From Neisseria cinerea (GTDB lineage Bacteria > Pseudomonadota > Gammaproteobacteria > Burkholderiales > Neisseriaceae), in contig NZ_LS483369.1 in the NCBI RefSeq assembly GCF_900475315.1, positions 558,001 to 622,000 on the forward strand: 64,000 bases of DNA, in the 5' to 3' direction. A program made the position numbers and the translations under genes. The notes under the pieces were generated by a model, which had not been told where the DNA came from, did no database searches, and saw only the letters and a list, made by a program, of their open reading frames with translations. Below, in pieces: positions 44,120 to 52,415 of the stretch; the first letter of the stretch is position 1, and every line of letters begins with the position of its first letter.

Positions 44120-46147
44120 ATGGAAGTCATCCAATACCCCGATTCCCCCTTCAAACTCCACCAACCCTTCCCACCCGCAGGCGACCAGCCTACCGCCATT
44201 GCCGGCCTGCTCGAAGGGCTTTCAGACGGCCTTGCCTATCAAACCCTGCTCGGCGTAACCGGTTCGGGCAAAACCTACACCATGGCGAACGTCATTGCTC
44301 AAAGCGGCCGACCCGCCATCATCATGGCGCACAACAAAACCCTTGCCGCCCAGCTTTATGCCGAAATGCGCGAGTTTTTCCCCGAAAACGCGGTGGAATA
44401 TTTCGTCTCCTACTACGACTATTACCAGCCCGAAGCCTATGTGCCCAACCGCGACCTGTTCATCGAAAAAGACAGCGCGATCAACGAACACATCGAGCAA
44501 ATGCGCCTTTCCGCCACCAAAAACCTGATGACGCGTAACGACGTGATTATCGTCGCCACCGTGTCCGCCATTTACGGTATCGGCGACCCGACCGAATATC
44601 AACAAATGGTATTGTCCGTCAAAGAAGGCGACACCATTGAGCAGCGCGACATCATCGCCACGCTCGTTTCCATGCAGTACGAACGCGGCGATTTGGACTT
44701 CAAACGCGGCAGCTTCCGCGTGCGCGGCGACGTGATTGACGTGTACCCCGCCGAAAGCTCCGAAAACGCCTTGCGCATCAGCCTATTTGACGACGAAATC
44801 GACCGCCTCGATATGTTCGACCCACTTTCAGGCAGCCTGCACCAGCGCGTCGGCCGCTATACCGTCTTCCCGTCCAGCCACTACGTTACCCCGCGCGACA
44901 CCGTATTGCGCGCCTGCGAGTCCATCAAAGAAGAATTGCGCGAACGCATCGAATTTTTCGCCCATGAACAACGCCCCGTCGAGCAACAACGCATCGAACA
45001 GCGCACCCGCTTCGACCTCGAAATGCTCTACGAAATGGGTTTCTGCAAAGGCATCGAAAACTACTCCCGCCACTTCTCCGGCAAAAAAGAAGGCGAACCG
45101 CCGCCCACACTGATGGACTACCTGCCCGACAACGCCATCATGTTCATCGACGAAAGCCACGTTACCGTTACCCAAATCGGCGGCATGTACAAAGGCGACG
45201 CATCGCGCAAGCAAAATCTCGTCGACTACGGCTTCCGCCTGCCTTCCGCTCGCGACAACCGACCGCTCAAATTCCACGAATTTGAAAAAGTCATGCCGCA
45301 AACCGTCTTCGTTTCCGCCACCCCCGCCAAATACGAAGAAGAACACGCCGGACAAGTCGTAGAACAAGTCGTCCGCCCCACAGGGCTGGTTGATCCCCAA
45401 ATCATCATCCGCCCCGTCGCCACCCAAGTTGATGACTTAATGAGCGAAATCAACGACCGCATCCAAAAAGGCGAACGCGTACTCGTTACCACCCTCACCA
45501 AACGCATGGCGGAGCAACTCACCGACTATTACAACGAACTCGGCATCAAAGTGCGCTACCTGCACAGCGACATCGACACCGTAGAGCGCGTTGAAATCAT
45601 CAGAGATTTGCGGCTCGGCCTGTTTGACGTACTCGTCGGCATCAACCTTTTGCGCGAAGGCCTCGACATCCCCGAAGTCTCACTCGTCGCTATCCTCGAC
45701 GCCGACAAAGAAGGCTTCCTGCGTTCCCACCGCAGCCTGATTCAAACCATAGGCCGCGCCGCGCGCAATGTGAACGGCGTCGCCATCCTGTACGCCGACA
45801 AAATCACCGACTCCATGAAAGCCGCCATCGACGAAACCGAACGCCGCCGCGAAAAACAGATTAAATTCAACGAAGAACACGGCATCGTGCCGCAACAGAT
45901 TAAAAAACAGGTCAAAGACATCATCGACGGCGTGTACCACGAAGAAGACAGCGGTAAAGGCCGTAGACAAGGCAAAAACAAGGTTAAAGTCGGCGAGATT
46001 CACAACGAAGAAGACGCGATTAAAGAAATCGCCAAACTGGAAAAAGCCATGCAGCAGGCGGCTAGGGATTTGCAGTTTGAAGAAGCGGCTGTTTTGAGGG
46101 ATAGGATTCGGGGGATTAAGGAAGGGTTGTTGTTTGGGGCAGAGTGA
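44120..46147 (+). CDS. uvrB: UvrABC excinuclease subunit B
   Basis: UvrB is the damage-verifying helicase of nucleotide excision repair, working with UvrA and with UvrC (encoded at 50.5 kb). The 675-residue protein has Walker [17 protein letters not shown] (~39-54), the beta-hairpin region [10 protein letters not shown] (~92-101), DESHVT (Walker B region), the helicase motifs [27 protein letters not shown] and QTIGRAARN, and a C-terminal UVR domain ([31 protein letters not shown]). Its last 82 bases are present again at 46853-46935 beyond an AT-rich two-gene insert. The stop codon is TGA here and TAG in the copy. Confidence 0.97.
46065..46147 (+). repeat. Direct repeat, left copy: 3' end of uvrB
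   Basis: This segment pairs with 46853-46935 at a constant offset of 788 bases. There are five substitutions before the stop codons, all synonymous. Both copies encode [20 protein letters not shown] then GLLFGAE. Confidence 0.9.
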
Positions 46148-46150
46148 AAA

Positions 46151-46180
46151 AAGCCGTCTGAAAACTCAGACGGCTTACTG
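46151..46180. terminator. Shared terminator of uvrB and the HTH module
   Basis: AAGCCGTCTGA (46151-46161) faces TCAGACGGCTT (46166-46176) between converging genes. It uses the core of the uptake sequence with altered flanks. Confidence 0.65.
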
Positions 46181-46381
46181 TTATTTAACCATTCTTAATT
46201 TACGTGGCTTTTCTTTTTGTATTTCGTTAGCCCTGTTGAAGGCATTCTCTGCTGCTTCGCGAGCAACAGCCTGCAAAATTTCCTCCATGCCACCACTCTG
46301 GCTAATCCGGACATTGCGAGCTGCTCCACCAGAGATTAATTTTCCTCTAAATTTTAGAGGCTTACACCAATTATCTTTCAT
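46181..46381 (-). CDS. Small basic protein of 66 residues, overlaps HTH gene
   Basis: I do not recognise this protein. It runs MKDNWCKPLKFRGKLISGGA, then a stretch with two Gly pairs, then a helix (MEEILQAVAREAAENAFNRANEIQ) and a basic end (KEKPRKLRMVK). There is no membrane segment. Its ATG lies inside the last codons of the HTH gene (11-base overlap), so translation is probably coupled. It is read toward uvrB and shares the terminator at 46151. Candidate roles are partner of the regulator, small toxin or antitoxin, or DNA/RNA-binding accessory, but none is shown by sequence. Confidence 0.6.
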   Translation of the reverse strand: MKDNWCKPLKFRGKLISGGAARNVRISQSGGMEEILQAVAREAAENAFNRANEIQKEKPRKLRMVK

Positions 46382-46718
46382 TTTTACCTTTCATATAATT
46401 GAAATCTTTTGAAACTTGACTTTGAGAAATACCAAGATACGAAGCAACTTCAGATTGAGTTAGTCCATCATCGTTAATTAATCGCTGAACCAAATTTCTG
46501 CGTTCATCTATTGATATTGAATTCTGATTAAAGCTACTCCATTGTTTTAATCCTTCTGCGTGCATCTTTTGGGTTAAAACCACCCCTGTCTCATTATCTT
46601 TAATTATTGCGATTGCTGTCTTACCTTTGATAGTCAGTTTTATATCGGTACTATCTCCAGCTTGAACAACTGTGGATAAGATTTGTGCCATGGTCTCAGT
46701 TGGTACTATATTTGCCAT
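46371..46718 (-). CDS. HTH DNA-binding regulator of an insertion module
   Basis: The 115-residue protein has an N-terminal beta-rich half (TDIKLTIKGKTAIAIIKDNETGVVLTQK, ~24-51). A typical helix-turn-helix follows at ~86-108 (GLTQSEVASYLGISQSQVSKD). The HTH suggests sequence-specific DNA binding, and I know no close family for the N-terminal half. Base composition is clearly more AT-rich than uvrB or trmB. It is the first gene of a two-gene unit, with promoter and dyad just upstream (46735-46778), so autorepression is likely. ATG at 46718 has a weak upstream AAGGAAT. Confidence 0.65.
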   Translation of the reverse strand: MANIVPTETMAQILSTVVQAGDSTDIKLTIKGKTAIAIIKDNETGVVLTQKMHAEGLKQWSSFNQNSISIDERRNLVQRLINDDGLTQSEVASYLGISQSQVSKDFNYMKGKNER

Positions 46719-46734
46719 TTAGATTCCTTGTTTG

Positions 46735-46778
46735 AAAGAATATAATTGAATTCTATTCTTTTAATTCTTTTCTGTGAA
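46735..46778 (-). promoter_or_regulatory. Promoter overlapped by inverted-repeat operator of the HTH module
   Basis: On minus, TTCACA (46773-46778), a 17-base spacer and TAGAAT (46750-46755) form a good sigma70 promoter. AAAGAATA (46735-46742) and TATTCTTT (46754-46761) form a perfect 8-bp inverted repeat that covers the -10 and start site. A further ATTCTTTT half-site lies at 46764-46771 within the spacer. This is a typical layout for autorepression by a dimeric HTH protein. Confidence 0.55.
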
Positions 46779-46791
46779 CTATTTTAGCAAG

Positions 46792-46842
46792 CCGTAGCAA
46801 CTGTATTTTTGCCCGACGGGGTGAAAAATACAGTTGCTACGG
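46792..46842. repeat. Perfect 19-bp palindromic element A
   Basis: CCGTAGCAACTGTATTTTT (46792-46810) is followed by a 13-base loop and then its exact inverse (46824-46842). It lies between the HTH module and the second uvrB tail. Its left flank AGCAA and right flank GGAAAACT recur at element B (47656-47758). Confidence 0.85.
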
Positions 46843-46852
46843 AAAACTGCGC

Positions 46853-46935
46853 GGGATTTGCAGTTTGAAGAGGCGGCTGTGTTGCGGGATAGGATTCGGG
46901 GGATTAAGGAAGGGTTGTTGTTTGGAGCGGAGTAG
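46853..46935 (+). pseudogene. Displaced second copy of the uvrB 3' end
   Basis: This encodes the last 27 residues of UvrB without any upstream uvrB sequence, with five synonymous differences from the intact gene and a TAG stop. It is the right-hand copy of the direct repeat. It most simply marks the original uvrB end, displaced by an insertion that brought or copied a new end. Confidence 0.85.
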
Positions 46936-46959
46936 TTTTGCAAAATTTAGGAGATCAAA

Positions 46960-47610
46960 ATGGATAAAATCTTAGAGATAATTATTAAATACCTTGAAGA
47001 AGGCAACTATAAGATCGCAACAATAATTATAGGATTATTGTTGCTAGTAGTTATTGTTTGGAAATCCAAAGATTTTTTAGAATACTGGTCTAATAGACAA
47101 AATTTTCGCCGGAGGCTTTTAGAGGAAATTATTAATAAAATACAAAAAACAGAAATAAAAAATTTCTTGGAGGGTGAGTTAATTAAAGAATATTTTGTCC
47201 GCGTATTTAAATTTAATGCGGAAGTTATATTTATAGAGAAATTGATTGATTTCCATTCCTTTTTAAATGGAGAGTTTACTTTTAATCAAATTATAAAGAG
47301 TAGGAGGTATATAAAATTCAAAGAAGGGAAACTTTCTATTAAGACTTCATTTGTTGATTGGGTAATGGATGCACTAATATACTATGTGATTGCTTTTATA
47401 TTATTTATATACGCTGCATCGATAATATTGATGTCAACTTTTGTATCTTGGCAATATAGTTTACGTGGGTTGTTTTTATTTATTGCAGGAGTAGTCATTT
47501 TGATTTTCAGTGTATTGATACAGATCCAAGCAATCCCATACAAAAATGCAAAAAAATTACAACGTAAATTAGAACAATTTAATAATCGACAATTAGACTA
47601 TCATATTTAA
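46960..47610 (+). CDS. AT-rich membrane protein of unknown function
   Basis: I do not recognise this 216-residue protein. It has three hydrophobic helices: TIIIGLLLLVVIVW (~22-35), LIYYVIAFILFIYAASIILMSTF (~139-161) and LRGLFLFIAGVVILIFSVLIQIQ (~168-190). A cytoplasmic or periplasmic basic/aromatic domain (~40-130, EIINKIQKTEIKNFLEGELIKEYFVRVFKF) lies between the first two. The start follows a good TAGGAGA. Base composition is the most AT-rich of any gene here, and codons are rich in A/T third positions, so it is probably acquired. It lies just behind the second uvrB tail and ahead of palindromic element B. Confidence 0.65.
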   Translation: MDKILEIIIKYLEEGNYKIATIIIGLLLLVVIVWKSKDFLEYWSNRQNFRRRLLEEIINKIQKTEIKNFLEGELIKEYFVRVFKFNAEVIFIEKLIDFHSFLNGEFTFNQIIKSRRYIKFKEGKLSIKTSFVDWVMDALIYYVIAFILFIYAASIILMSTFVSWQYSLRGLFLFIAGVVILIFSVLIQIQAIPYKNAKKLQRKLEQFNNRQLDYHI

Positions 47611-48051
47611 TAAATGTATATAATAAAGCAAGCGAGCGTAGGTTGGGTCAAGCAACCGTAGGTCGGATACTTGTATCCGACAAAACCTTTAATATTCCCG
47701 TTGTTGCAATCCATTGCAGCAATACCCAAAATGTCGGATTCGAGAGTCCGATCTACGGAAAACTAAAGATTTTATGTGGGCTACGGCTTACTTGTTGAGT
47801 TTAGATTTCATATGGGCTACGGCTTGCTGTAAATTTTGATAGAGATTACTTTTTAACTGTAAGCAAGCTGTATCCTTACCTACCGCGTGCGTGGCTGCGC
47901 CATACACCCTATCTGCGGGCGGCACAAACTTTAAAACCGATGCGCAGGTTAAAACCTACAAGGATGCGTGCGGTATACATGTGTTTTTGCCGTTCAAACC
48001 ATTGTTTTAAACCTTGTATCGAAACATCACTCGCGCTTTATCTTAAAAAAA
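47611..48051. other. Repeat-rich gap between membrane gene and trmB
   Basis: About 440 bases without a supported gene. It contains palindromic element B (47656-47758), two copies of GGGCTACGGCTT (47778-47789, 47814-47825), and a 13-mer GCTACGGCTTGCT (47816-47828) that is the exact inverse of 46786-46798. It looks like a mosaic of small intergenic repeats. Confidence 0.6.
47656..47758. repeat. Palindromic element B with imperfect terminal inverted repeats
   Basis: CCGTAGGTCGGA (47656-47667) and TCCGATCTACGG (47747-47758) are inverse with one mismatch. Inside is a perfect 9-bp hairpin GTCGGATAC/GTATCCGAC (47662-47681). A further short stem around TTGCAAT/ATTGCA lies near 47705-47720. The ends and the following GGAAAACT match element A. 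Confidence 0.7.
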
Positions 48052-48105: not shown

Positions 48106-48822
48106 TTATCCGATCCGTTTGAATACCAAGTCCCAAACGCCGTGTCCGAGGCGTTTGCCGCGCGCTTCGAATTTGGTTTCGGGGCGATAGTCCGGGGTGG
48201 GGGCGTAGTCTGCCGCCGTATTTTGCAGGCTGTTGAAGCCGCTGAGGACTTCAAGCATCTGCTGTGCATATGCTTCCCAGTCTGTCGCCAGGTGGATATA
48301 GCCGCCGGTTTTGAGTTTGGGCAGTAGTTTGGCGATGAAGGGGGCTTGTATCAGGCGGCGTTTGTGGTGGCGTTTTTTGTGCCACGGGTCGGGGAAGAAT
48401 ATGTGGATGCCGTCGAGCGAGCCGTCTTGCAGCATATTTTCGACAACTTCTACGGCATCGTGCCGCATCACGCGGATATTTTCCAAATGGTTTTCTTCTA
48501 TGAGTTTGAGCAGATTGCCTACGCCGGGACCGTGTACGTCGATGGCGAGAAAGTCGGTTTCGGGCAGCCTGCAGGCGATTTCTGCGGTTGCCGTCCCCAT
48601 ACCGAAGCCTATTTCGAGGATTTTGGGTCGGCTGCTTCCGAAACGGGCATCGAGATCGGCCGGTGTTGCTTGGTAGTCGATGCCGAAGCTGTCCCATAAG
48701 GTATCGATGGCGCGTTGCTGTGCGGCGGTCATGTGGCTTTGGCGGAGGACGAAACTGCGGATGCTGCGGGGATGTTCGGCTTGCCAGTTGTTTTGTGTTT
48801 GGTTTTCGGCGGTGTCTGTCAT
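48106..48822 (-). CDS. trmB: tRNA (guanine-46-N7)-methyltransferase
   Basis: It makes m7G46 in tRNA. The 238-residue enzyme has the SAM motif KILEIGFGMGTATAEIA (~69-85), AIDVHGPGVGNLLKLIEE, and the TrmB signature IHIFFPDPWHKKRHHKRRLIQAPFI (~148-172). The C-terminal catalytic-region stretch TKFEARGKRLGHGVWDLVFKR also matches. The N-terminal RSIRSFVLRQSHMT is typical. It is the last gene before the accessory patch and is read toward it. Confidence 0.94.
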   Translation of the reverse strand: MTDTAENQTQNNWQAEHPRSIRSFVLRQSHMTAAQQRAIDTLWDSFGIDYQATPADLDARFGSSRPKILEIGFGMGTATAEIACRLPETDFLAIDVHGPGVGNLLKLIEENHLENIRVMRHDAVEVVENMLQDGSLDGIHIFFPDPWHKKRHHKRRLIQAPFIAKLLPKLKTGGYIHLATDWEAYAQQMLEVLSGFNSLQNTAADYAPTPDYRPETKFEARGKRLGHGVWDLVFKRIG

Positions 48823-50465: not shown

Positions 50466-52319
50466 CTAATGCAGATGCTCGTAAATGATTTCCGCCAGTG
50501 CTTTGCTGATGCCTTCGACTTGTTCCAAATCCTCTTTGCTGGCGGCAACGACGCCGCGCAGGCCGCCGAAGCGGGTGAGTAGGGCTTGGCGGCGTTTGCT
50601 GCCTACGCCGGGGATGTCGCTGAGTGATGAGGTAACGCGGGCTTTGTCGCGTTTTTTGCGGTGGCCGGTGATGGCGAAACGGTGCGATTCGTCGCGCACG
50701 GTTTGCAGGAGGTGCAGGGCGGGGCTGTTGGGCGGCAGGCGGAAGGTTTCGCCGGTGAACGGGAGGATGAGTTCTTCCATACCGGCCTTGCGTTCGGGGC
50801 CTTTGGCAATGCCGACCAAGGGGATGTGCAGCCCGAGTTCTTCCCATACGGATACGGCGATGCCGATTTGTCCTTTGCCGCCGTCAATCAACACGACATC
50901 CGGCCATTTGACGGTCTCGCCGTTGGCTTCGGCTTCCTGCATTTTGCCGTAACGACGGGTGAGGACTTCACGCATGGCGGCGTAGTCGTCGCCGGGTTTG
51001 GCGGTGGTGATGTTGTAGCGGCGGTATTGCGAGGGTTGGATGTTTTGTTCGTCGTACACGACGCAGGAGGCGATGGTGGCTTCGCCTTGAGTGTGGCTGA
51101 TGTCGAAGCATTCGAGGCGGTTGAGGTCGTCTGAATTCATGTTTAGGATTTTTGCCAACTCGTCGATGCGGTGTTGCTGGCTGCTTTGTTGCAGGCGGCG
51201 TTGGGCTATTGCCATCTGTGCGTTTTGTTCCGCCATTTTCAGCCAGACTTTGCGTTCGCCTATGGTTTTGGTTACGAACTGCATTTGTTTGCCGTGCTCA
51301 CCCTCTAGGGCTTCTTTCAATGCGTCGGGGACGGGGAAGTTGCTGATGATGATGTCGGGTTTGCTTTTGCCCAGATAGTGTTGGGCGACGAAGGCTTCGG
51401 CGTAATCTTGCCCGTTTGGTTCGGGGTCGTTTTTGGTGTCGGGGAAGAAGCTTTTGTCGCCGACGTGCCGCCCACCGCGTATGCTGACCCAGTGTACGCA
51501 GACAAGGCCGTCTGAAACGGCAAGCGCGAGCAGGTCGATGTCGTTGGGGTTATTCGGGTTTTTGCTGTCGATGAACTGGTTGCTCTGCATGATGCCGAGT
51601 GCTTGGATTTGGTCGCGGTAGCGGGCGGCTTCTTCAAATTGTAGGTTGGCGGCGGCGGTCTGCATTTTGTGTTGCAGGGTGCGGGTCAGTTCGTCGGTTT
51701 TGCCGTTGAGGAAGGTGGCGGCTTGGCGCACGCTGTCGCGGTAATCTTCTTCGCTGATGTGGCCGACGCAGGGCGCGGTGCAGCGTTTGATTTGATACAG
51801 CAGGCAAGGGCGATCGCGGTGTTCGAACACGCTGTCTTCGCAGGTGCGCAGCATAAAGACTTTTTGCAGGACTTGGATGCTGTCGCGCACGGCGTTGCTG
51901 TTGGGATAAGGGCCGAAGTATTGGTTCGGCTTTTTCAGCGTGCCGCGGTAATACGCCATCTGCGGATATTGATGTCCGCTGAGCATGAGGTAAGGATAGC
52001 TTTTGTCGTCGCGGAAGAGGATATTGTATTTGGGCGACAGGGCTTTGATGAAGTTGTTTTCGAGAATCAGCGCTTCGGCTTCGGAGCGGGTGATGGTGGT
52101 TTCGATGTGGTGAACCTGTTTCACCATCAAGGCGATGCGCGGAGAATGGTCGTTTTTCTGGAAATAGCCGGACACGCGTCGCTTAAGGTTGACGGCTTTG
52201 CCGACGTATAAGACGTTGCCGCCTTCGTCGAAAAAACGGTATACACCGGGCAGATTGGGCAGGTTTTTGAGGAAAAGTGGGATGTCGAAGTGTTCCGGAA
52301 AACGGGTTTCTGTATTCAT
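50466..52319 (-). CDS. uvrC: UvrABC excinuclease subunit C
   Basis: UvrC makes both incisions in nucleotide excision repair. The 617-residue chain has an N-terminal GIY-YIG nuclease (GVYRFFDEGGNVLYVGKAVNLKRRVSGYF, ~25-53), a UVR domain (MQTAAANLQFEEAARYRDQIQAL, ~200-222) and the RNase H-like endonuclease region (RLECFDISHTQGEATIASCVVYD, ~397-419, with DGGKGQIGIA). C-terminal helix-hairpin-helix motifs (LSDIPGVGSKRRQALLTRFGGLRGVVAASKEDLEQVEGISKALAEIIYEHL) follow. The start MNTETRFPEHFDI at 52319 is preferred to the ATG at 52352, which is part of an uptake sequence. Confidence 0.96.
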   Translation of the reverse strand: MNTETRFPEHFDIPLFLKNLPNLPGVYRFFDEGGNVLYVGKAVNLKRRVSGYFQKNDHSPRIALMVKQVHHIETTITRSEAEALILENNFIKALSPKYNILFRDDKSYPYLMLSGHQYPQMAYYRGTLKKPNQYFGPYPNSNAVRDSIQVLQKVFMLRTCEDSVFEHRDRPCLLYQIKRCTAPCVGHISEEDYRDSVRQAATFLNGKTDELTRTLQHKMQTAAANLQFEEAARYRDQIQALGIMQSNQFIDSKNPNNPNDIDLLALAVSDGLVCVHWVSIRGGRHVGDKSFFPDTKNDPEPNGQDYAEAFVAQHYLGKSKPDIIISNFPVPDALKEALEGEHGKQMQFVTKTIGERKVWLKMAEQNAQMAIAQRRLQQSSQQHRIDELAKILNMNSDDLNRLECFDISHTQGEATIASCVVYDEQNIQPSQYRRYNITTAKPGDDYAAMREVLTRRYGKMQEAEANGETVKWPDVVLIDGGKGQIGIAVSVWEELGLHIPLVGIAKGPERKAGMEELILPFTGETFRLPPNSPALHLLQTVRDESHRFAITGHRKKRDKARVTSSLSDIPGVGSKRRQALLTRFGGLRGVVAASKEDLEQVEGISKALAEIIYEHLH

Positions 52320-52415
52320 ATCAATTATTTGAAAAACGGCTTCAGACGGCATATTACCATATCGCTGGGGGCAGCCTTATCTGTTCGGACAAGGCTGCAG
52401 GGCGGTTACATGCTG

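Follow-up and report, generated by a model that had tools for sequence, protein, structure and literature searches.

Minimal mobile elements (MMEs) are presented, in passages of PMC3898611 and PMC3082526, as regions between two conserved genes which hold different whole-gene cassettes incorporated by homologous recombination; a passage of PMC2784325 also treats the MMEs of Neisseria. Here we describe a stretch of 64,000 nucleotides of Neisseria cinerea (contig NZ_LS483369.1, positions 558,001 to 622,000; hereafter the window), in which the 3′ end of the excision-repair gene uvrB is present twice. It is in this genus that MMEs were reportedly described, by Saunders and Snyder in 2002 and by Snyder in 2007. 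We suggest that the uvrB end is doubled in the window because the DNA behind uvrB is a site where related species carry different small foreign genes. This site, directly after the uvrB stop codon, is probably an MME-like cassette exchange site, which works via natural transformation and homologous recombination.

The doubled end and the DNA behind uvrB

The last 83 bases of uvrB recur at an offset of +788 in a base-by-base comparison, and the alignment of 46065-46145 with 46853-46933 has 94% identity over 81 nt at the same offset of 788. When the genome of the window is searched with the uvrB end, the second copy (tail 2, as opposed to tail 1 of the intact gene) is found with E 3.9e-29, and therefore the match is not due to chance. 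The tails differ at 7 of 83 nucleotides. Five differences are synonymous (GAA/GAG, GTT/GTG, AGG/CGG, GGG/GGA and GCA/GCG) and two alter the stop codon (TGA to TAG); the same 26-residue peptide is encoded by both tails, and the 40-bp block 46098-46137 is identical between them. The initial annotation had reported the doubling at this offset with a length of 82 bases, five coding differences, all synonymous, and a kept peptide, and this is borne out base by base, with one more base and the changed stop codon. The AT-rich two-gene insert that it described between the tails is also there: 46148-46848 has a GC content of 36.8%, compared with 55.2% in uvrB and 50.9% in the window, and contains two open reading frames (ORFs) on the minus strand. 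With each species represented by one genome, the nearest sequence to tail 1 is that of G012 (3 differences), while G012 and G018 are the nearest to tail 2 (4 each). The initial annotation had argued from the synonymous divergence that the end of the intact gene stems from a different strain or species; these counts speak neither for nor against this.

With the last 448 bases of uvrB as the query, a search of 46 genomes of the genus gave a match in 45. Within the detection of this DNA search, a single tail is present at uvrB in 44 of the 45 genomes, as the initial annotation had predicted for sites elsewhere, and two tails occur only in the genome of the window. Short matches to the uvrB end are found elsewhere in G032 (41 bases) and in G004, G006 and G045 (27 bases). 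The region behind uvrB was compared for 38 of the 45 relatives, that is, all except G003 and G028-G033; in G011, G015, G026 and G034 the contig extends only 0.8-4.4 kb behind uvrB.

In most relatives the sequence is wholly different from the uvrB stop codon, or a few codons around it, onward. A cassette is common to G005 and G039 and another one to G007 and G036; G021 and G004 have the first 33 bases in common, G001 and G009 about 66 bases. Among 17 close species, 2 of 136 pairs have in common DNA that begins no further than 150 bp past the stop; with the second cassette of the window included it is 3 of 136. Five control gene ends of the same window, whose genes we take from their sequences to be rhlE, xseA, gatB, lpd and trxB, give 34/136, 22/105 (15 species), 60/136, 31/120 (16 species) and 26/136 in the close species, or 19-44%. 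Over all 29-30 species, uvrB gives 3/435 versus 41/435, 31/406, 78/435, 85/406 and 42/435 in the controls. Mean GC in the 500 bp after the stop is 0.32 for uvrB versus 0.45-0.49 for the controls.

A plus-strand ORF of at least 90 amino acids (aa) starts within 320 bp after uvrB in 31 of the 38 relatives, and within 100 bp in 24 of them. These first ORFs, delimited mechanically, fall into 29 BLAST clusters; different cassettes at one site, the mark of an MME, are thus present here across species, rather than across strains. Beyond the genus, 30 uvrB loci were obtained from 31 genomes, one locus ending at the gene. The GC content behind uvrB is 0.25-0.28 in G049, G065, G066, G082 and G080, and 0.42-0.56 in many others.

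In 16-17 of the close species the divergence is 0.115 in the last 28 codons and 0.049 in the preceding codons, a ratio of 2.36, compared with 1.05-1.24 at gatB, lpd, trxB and xseA. In a scan of the whole gene the last 28-codon window is the highest (0.114). In two pairs with a cassette in common, the divergence of the tail does not exceed that of the gene body (0.013 and 0.038 for G007/G036; 0.038 and 0.046 for G005/G039). Across the 38 genomes of the genus the synonymous codon identity of the tail, 0.74, is ordinary, 28-codon stretches of uvrB having 0.68-0.87.

We note that the C-terminus of UvrB varies with the cassette: the protein stops after LLFGA in G007 and G036 and after LLF in G013 (L046, L049, L050), in place of LLFGAE.

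Repeats at the right edge and a uvrB end behind murI

The right edges of shared cassettes coincide with dispersed repeats, which we name R1, R2 and R3. The alignment of the second cassette of the window with that of G023 stops at 47652, and R1 starts at about 47650. Similarly, the cassette common to G007 and G036 ends where an R2 block starts. At least one of the three repeats is found within 1.5 kb downstream of uvrB in 24 of 30 loci (window included), versus 3, 1, 0, 0 and 0 of 30 for the five controls and 1 of 30 for murI. The repeat density declines from 0.63 to 0-0.03 per kb past 4 kb.

Such edges raise the possibility that a RAYT-like transposase, acting on single strands as in IS200, moves DNA beside its palindromes and takes the cassettes along, with the doubled tail arising as a by-product. 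We consider this route unlikely. In 13 of 39 loci an ORF cluster with RAYT-like members lies no more than 10 kb behind uvrB, its 185-aa member in L036 matches Pfam Y1_Tnp at 6.5e-9, and Y1_Tnp is found in 4 of 91 neighbour proteins (150-700 aa) of the relatives; R1 stands at the right edge of a cassette, and R3, a palindrome ending in GTAG, closes the first cassette of the window. However, the cluster is absent from 26 of the 39 loci, and for one of its members, of 78 aa, Pfam gives no match. At the uvrB end, which forms the left edge, we saw no palindrome, and R3 ends about 10 bases upstream of tail 2. An intact Y1 transposase flanked by its palindromes was not found in the window, which has only a 41-aa ORF (47714-47839) with a RAYT-like start.

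Cassette exchange by homologous recombination, which we prefer, is also consistent with a second site. In G036 and G013 a uvrB end of 168-184 bp lies about 10 bp after a gene that we take to be murI (L074:4197-4875 and L075:4614-5129). Between these two genomes murI is 96.0% identical and the DNA beyond the site 96.6%, while the uvrB ends are 89.9% identical, and between the uvrB end and R2 there is no long match. One of these cassettes carries a 134-aa ORF with no Pfam match, and the other an Xre-type helix-turn-helix (HTH) protein (HTH_3) and small ORFs. The murI copy of G036 is closer to uvrB of G005, G039 and G021 (94%) than to its own uvrB (91%). In G035 and G037 (L396, L397) the site is empty, with murI followed directly by the next gene and no uvrB end. 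Cassettes bounded by the same repeated end at another place, which the initial annotation had predicted, are therefore found behind murI in two species, and they differ from each other. This is most simply explained by a single insertion of a uvrB end at murI, with a later change of the cassette in the stretch from this end to R2.

The joints of this insertion involve what we take to be the core of the Neisseria DNA uptake sequence. The left joint lies in AAAGGCCGTCTGAAA, this core within the terminator of the empty murI site. In many species AAAGGCCGTCTGAAA is also found within uvrB, about 188 bases upstream of the stop, and the right side of the insertion again has a terminator with the uptake-sequence core. 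In the last 400 nt the core is present in 23 of 39 uvrB genes; in the rest of uvrB it occurs 38 times, on either strand, in 62,286 bases.

What the cassettes carry

In 30 proteins from the relatives the matches above Pfam cut-offs are FRG, HEPN RiboL-PSP, HEPN, DUF4917, KilA-N, YniB and DUF2459; the remaining proteins of this set have nothing above the Pfam cut-off. A PADLOC comparison of 30 first-cassette proteins (28 from relatives and 2 from the window, with 10 of 38 relatives unrepresented) gives matches at 1e-5 or better in five: AbiLi (G002), PDC-S15 (G011), PDC-S21 (G041), BstA (G019) and HEC-07 (G009). The G019 protein is BstA in PHROGs as well (3.6e-55). As control, 1 of 34 proteins from at least 4 kb downstream matched, in raw small counts and for genes that are apparently mostly non-accessory. 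Neither cassette of the window convincingly matched a defence model of PADLOC. Among the 91 neighbour proteins, 4 have the immunity-like SMI1_KNR4 (SUKH) family, and the 25 commonest of their 100 Pfam families include no integrase. Defence is a plausible theme of the cassettes.

Some loci carry genes of other kinds. The first ORF behind uvrB in G014 presumably encodes a carbonic-anhydrase-like protein, and another ORF of its cluster is present in G004, 748 bp behind uvrB (L040:3266-4024 and L051:8424-9182). ORFs that we take to be insertion-sequence transposase-like are found behind uvrB in G018 (L038:9417-10071) and G017 (L071:8536-9498).

A hairpin with a stem of at least 8 within 110 bp past the stop is present in 5 of 39 loci (window, G006, G026, G009 and G021). 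In G006 and G026 the first ORF is on the opposite strand, and in G009 and G021 the first plus-strand ORF of at least 90 aa is at 240-296 bp. Since most cassette ORFs are on the uvrB strand with no hairpin between, most cassette genes may, judging from sequence, be transcribed through from uvrB.

The window has two cassettes (Table 1). In cassette 1, between the tails, the 115-aa and 66-aa ORFs overlap by 11 bases, both on the minus strand. The initial annotation had named an HTH regulator and a small basic protein: the 66-aa product is indeed basic, while the HTH matches of the 115-aa product are below Pfam's curated cut-offs. The 66-aa ORF, compared with family libraries only, matches nothing in Pfam, NCBIfam or PHROG at the thresholds applied. 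For the 115-aa protein no relative was found in the 82 other family genomes, genome_contigs, plasmids, phages or viral contigs, the scans of genome_contigs and viral contigs being sensitive to close relatives only. Its AlphaFold model, made without alignment (pLDDT 69.9), has no Foldseek match at E ≤0.001, and the fits of this model to DeoR/LsrR-like HTH are weak. An IetA match (1.2e-4) and weak sigma/HTH matches are too weak to be believed.

As DNA, the insert was compared with 83 family genomes, and outside the genome of the window only R3 and the uptake-sequence hairpin are among the matches listed; against the uvrB regions of the relatives there is no match except R3. Rfam gives two matches, both far under the gathering scores. 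R3, of about 50 bp, is dispersed across many species of the family (L077-L099), yet one copy was detected in the genome of the window.

The stretch after tail 2, 46936-47649, was absent from the initial annotation. It has 27.6% GC and looks like a second cassette with the 216-aa ORF, whose sole relative in the 82 other family genomes is in G023, directly behind its single uvrB end. On the right, trmB followed by a TPR gene is found in the window, G005, G014, G019, G022 and G039, and other species have a different right neighbour. The ORF at 50466-52352 of the window, which we take to be uvrC, starts 4.3 kb past uvrB, so that in this genome the cassette site would lie between two excision-repair genes.

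Table 1. Features of the uvrB region, in positions of the window
Feature	Position	Strand	Remark
uvrB	44120..46147	+	UvrB Pfam domains; conserved left anchor of the cassette site
uvrB tail copy 1	46065..46147	+	runs on from the intact gene
Hairpin, 11-bp stem, with DNA-uptake-sequence core GCCGTCTGAA at 46153	46151..46176		between convergent uvrB and cassette 1
66-aa basic ORF of cassette 1 (15 K/R, 7 D/E)	46181..46381	-	
115-aa HTH-like ORF of cassette 1	46371..46718	-	
R3, dispersed palindrome with two perfect 19-nt arms CCGTAGCAACTGTATTTTT	46792..46842		right end of cassette 1
uvrB tail copy 2	46853..46935	+	homology may start a few bases further upstream
216-aa ORF of cassette 2	46960..47610	+	
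R1, dispersed repeat	47650..47803	+	right edge of cassette 2
41-aa ORF overlapping R1	47714-47839		start resembles the RAYT-like ORF of L036
R2, dispersed repeat	47866..47955 (query stretch; matches span about 47878-47948)		
trmB-like methyltransferase	48106..48822	-	right flank kept in five close relatives

Origin of the doubled end and comparison with known systems

The comparison of the genomes shows a hot spot behind uvrB, the divergence of the tail, edges at repeats, and a uvrB end at murI with different cassettes. The initial annotation had offered a minimal mobile element driven by natural transformation as one possibility, and with these four observations it becomes the best fit. The route and the joining step can be pictured as follows.

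DNA taken up by natural transformation would pair with uvrB on the left, and therefore a cassette could travel with its own uvrB end. On the right the pairing would be with dispersed palindromic repeats or with the next gene, and the gene between would get swapped. In the window the exchange would have added a cassette rather than replaced one: one crossover would have occurred in or near uvrB and the other joint about 85 bases short of where a uvrB copy ends, so that one joint was not at full homology and the cassette was added. The resulting order would be uvrB, tail 1, cassette 1 (the HTH pair), tail 2 and cassette 2 (the 216-aa ORF). Cassette 1 may have been inserted to the left of a resident tail 2; alternatively, tail 2 with cassette 2 may have been inserted behind a resident cassette 1. 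Both orders yield an identical structure, as would a circle with a uvrB end that integrates by one crossover. The doubled end looks like the scar of one such exchange.

Several points weigh against this account. Of the 45 genomes, 1 has two tails at uvrB itself; we found no donor molecule, and no parental form of the right-hand joint came to light. The first 28 codons of uvrB are likewise raised in divergence (0.100 versus 0.114 at the end), so the uvrB end is not unique in this respect, and the divergence near the stop could come partly from relaxed constraint. R1-R3 were picked from the uvrB region of the window, and therefore the repeat count favours uvrB. The uvrB gene of the window lacks an internal uptake-sequence core. 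The tail of G023 differs from tail 2 by 8 bases and from tail 1 by 7, though cassette 2 is common with G023. With one genome per species the comparison spans species, and exchange within a species is outside its view.

Site-specific integration at the uvrB end, in the manner of elements at tRNA or tmRNA genes, was another reading of the initial annotation. Here the integrase would be lost or would act from elsewhere, and tail 2 would be the displaced original end. The edges at a gene end, the same peptide encoded twice and the 40-bp identical block are what such integration would leave. However, the tail is ordinary in its conservation genus-wide (0.74 versus 0.68-0.87) and in close species no other stretch of the gene diverges more; this leaves both the tRNA-like reading and a conserved attachment core at the uvrB end unsupported. 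Moreover, a single tail stands at uvrB in 44 of 45 genomes, and the murI copy begins about 188 bases before the stop, at the uptake-sequence core. The initial annotation had itself seen no integrase, and we agree: neither ORF of cassette 1 has an integrase match in Pfam, NCBIfam or PHROG, and none is among the 25 commonest of the 100 families in the 91 neighbour proteins. Integration of this kind is thus very improbable. A chance tandem duplication or an assembly error, which the single assembly examined for the genome of the window would permit, is scarcely credible, as the tails differ at 7 of 83 bases, different AT-rich ORFs stand behind each, and tail 2 with the 216-aa ORF matches the single-tail arrangement of G023.

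If cassettes are exchanged at uvrB by transformation, a broader picture may be drawn, which we put forward tentatively and hold to be somewhat doubtful as a whole. The uvrB end, which in many species contains an uptake sequence, would be the portable left arm of a genus-wide gene-capture platform. The cassettes of this platform would be enriched for phage defences of one gene each, would be expressed from the transcript of uvrB and would be exchanged by transformation at uvrB, and this arm could seed sites elsewhere, as at murI. The uvrB site gives a concrete picture of how small foreign genes may be exchanged in a naturally transformable genus with no integrase involved: the end of a housekeeping gene would supply the left arm, and dispersed repeats the right edge. 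Judging from the murI copies, an arm of this kind may be able to start an exchange site at a new place, and the site behind uvrB offers a compact set of candidate defence genes.

In a limited literature search, which did not extend to the original MME papers, we found neither the 3′ side of uvrB described as a cassette site nor a travelling or doubled gene end described at an MME-like site. The part of PMC2649163 seen here deals with a repeat 5′ of uvrB. REP/RAYT elements and GTAG-tagged palindromes are treated in passages of PMC3733652. The uvrB locus is similar to them in that the R3 palindrome ends in GTAG and a Y1 transposase lies beside R1 in some loci. However, no intact transposase of this sort stands beside R1 in the window, and R1-R3 are likened to these elements by form, not by published family.

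In the CDI, Rhs and maf toxin loci displaced C-terminal modules are found, and a repeated gene end is the homology for exchanging what follows. By analogy, the uvrB end may serve as homology for exchange downstream. Unlike in these loci, uvrB is a repair gene with the same encoded end twice, and the cassette is a separate gene rather than a new C-terminus. Homology-facilitated illegitimate recombination joins DNA through homology on one side and over short homology or none on the other. It would give the structure of the window, whose right-hand sequence was not seen in parental form.

Last but not least, the closest likeness is to the MMEs. Both have different whole-gene cassettes at one conserved site, low GC and a proposed homologous recombination in the flanks. 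As far as the passages on MMEs go, the uvrB site is different: the end of a flanking gene can move together with the cassette, and this end occurs twice in the window and again at murI, where different cassettes follow it. Moreover, dispersed repeats form the right edges, and distant species differ in the right neighbour. The uvrB site fits the MME kind and may itself already be among the published sites.

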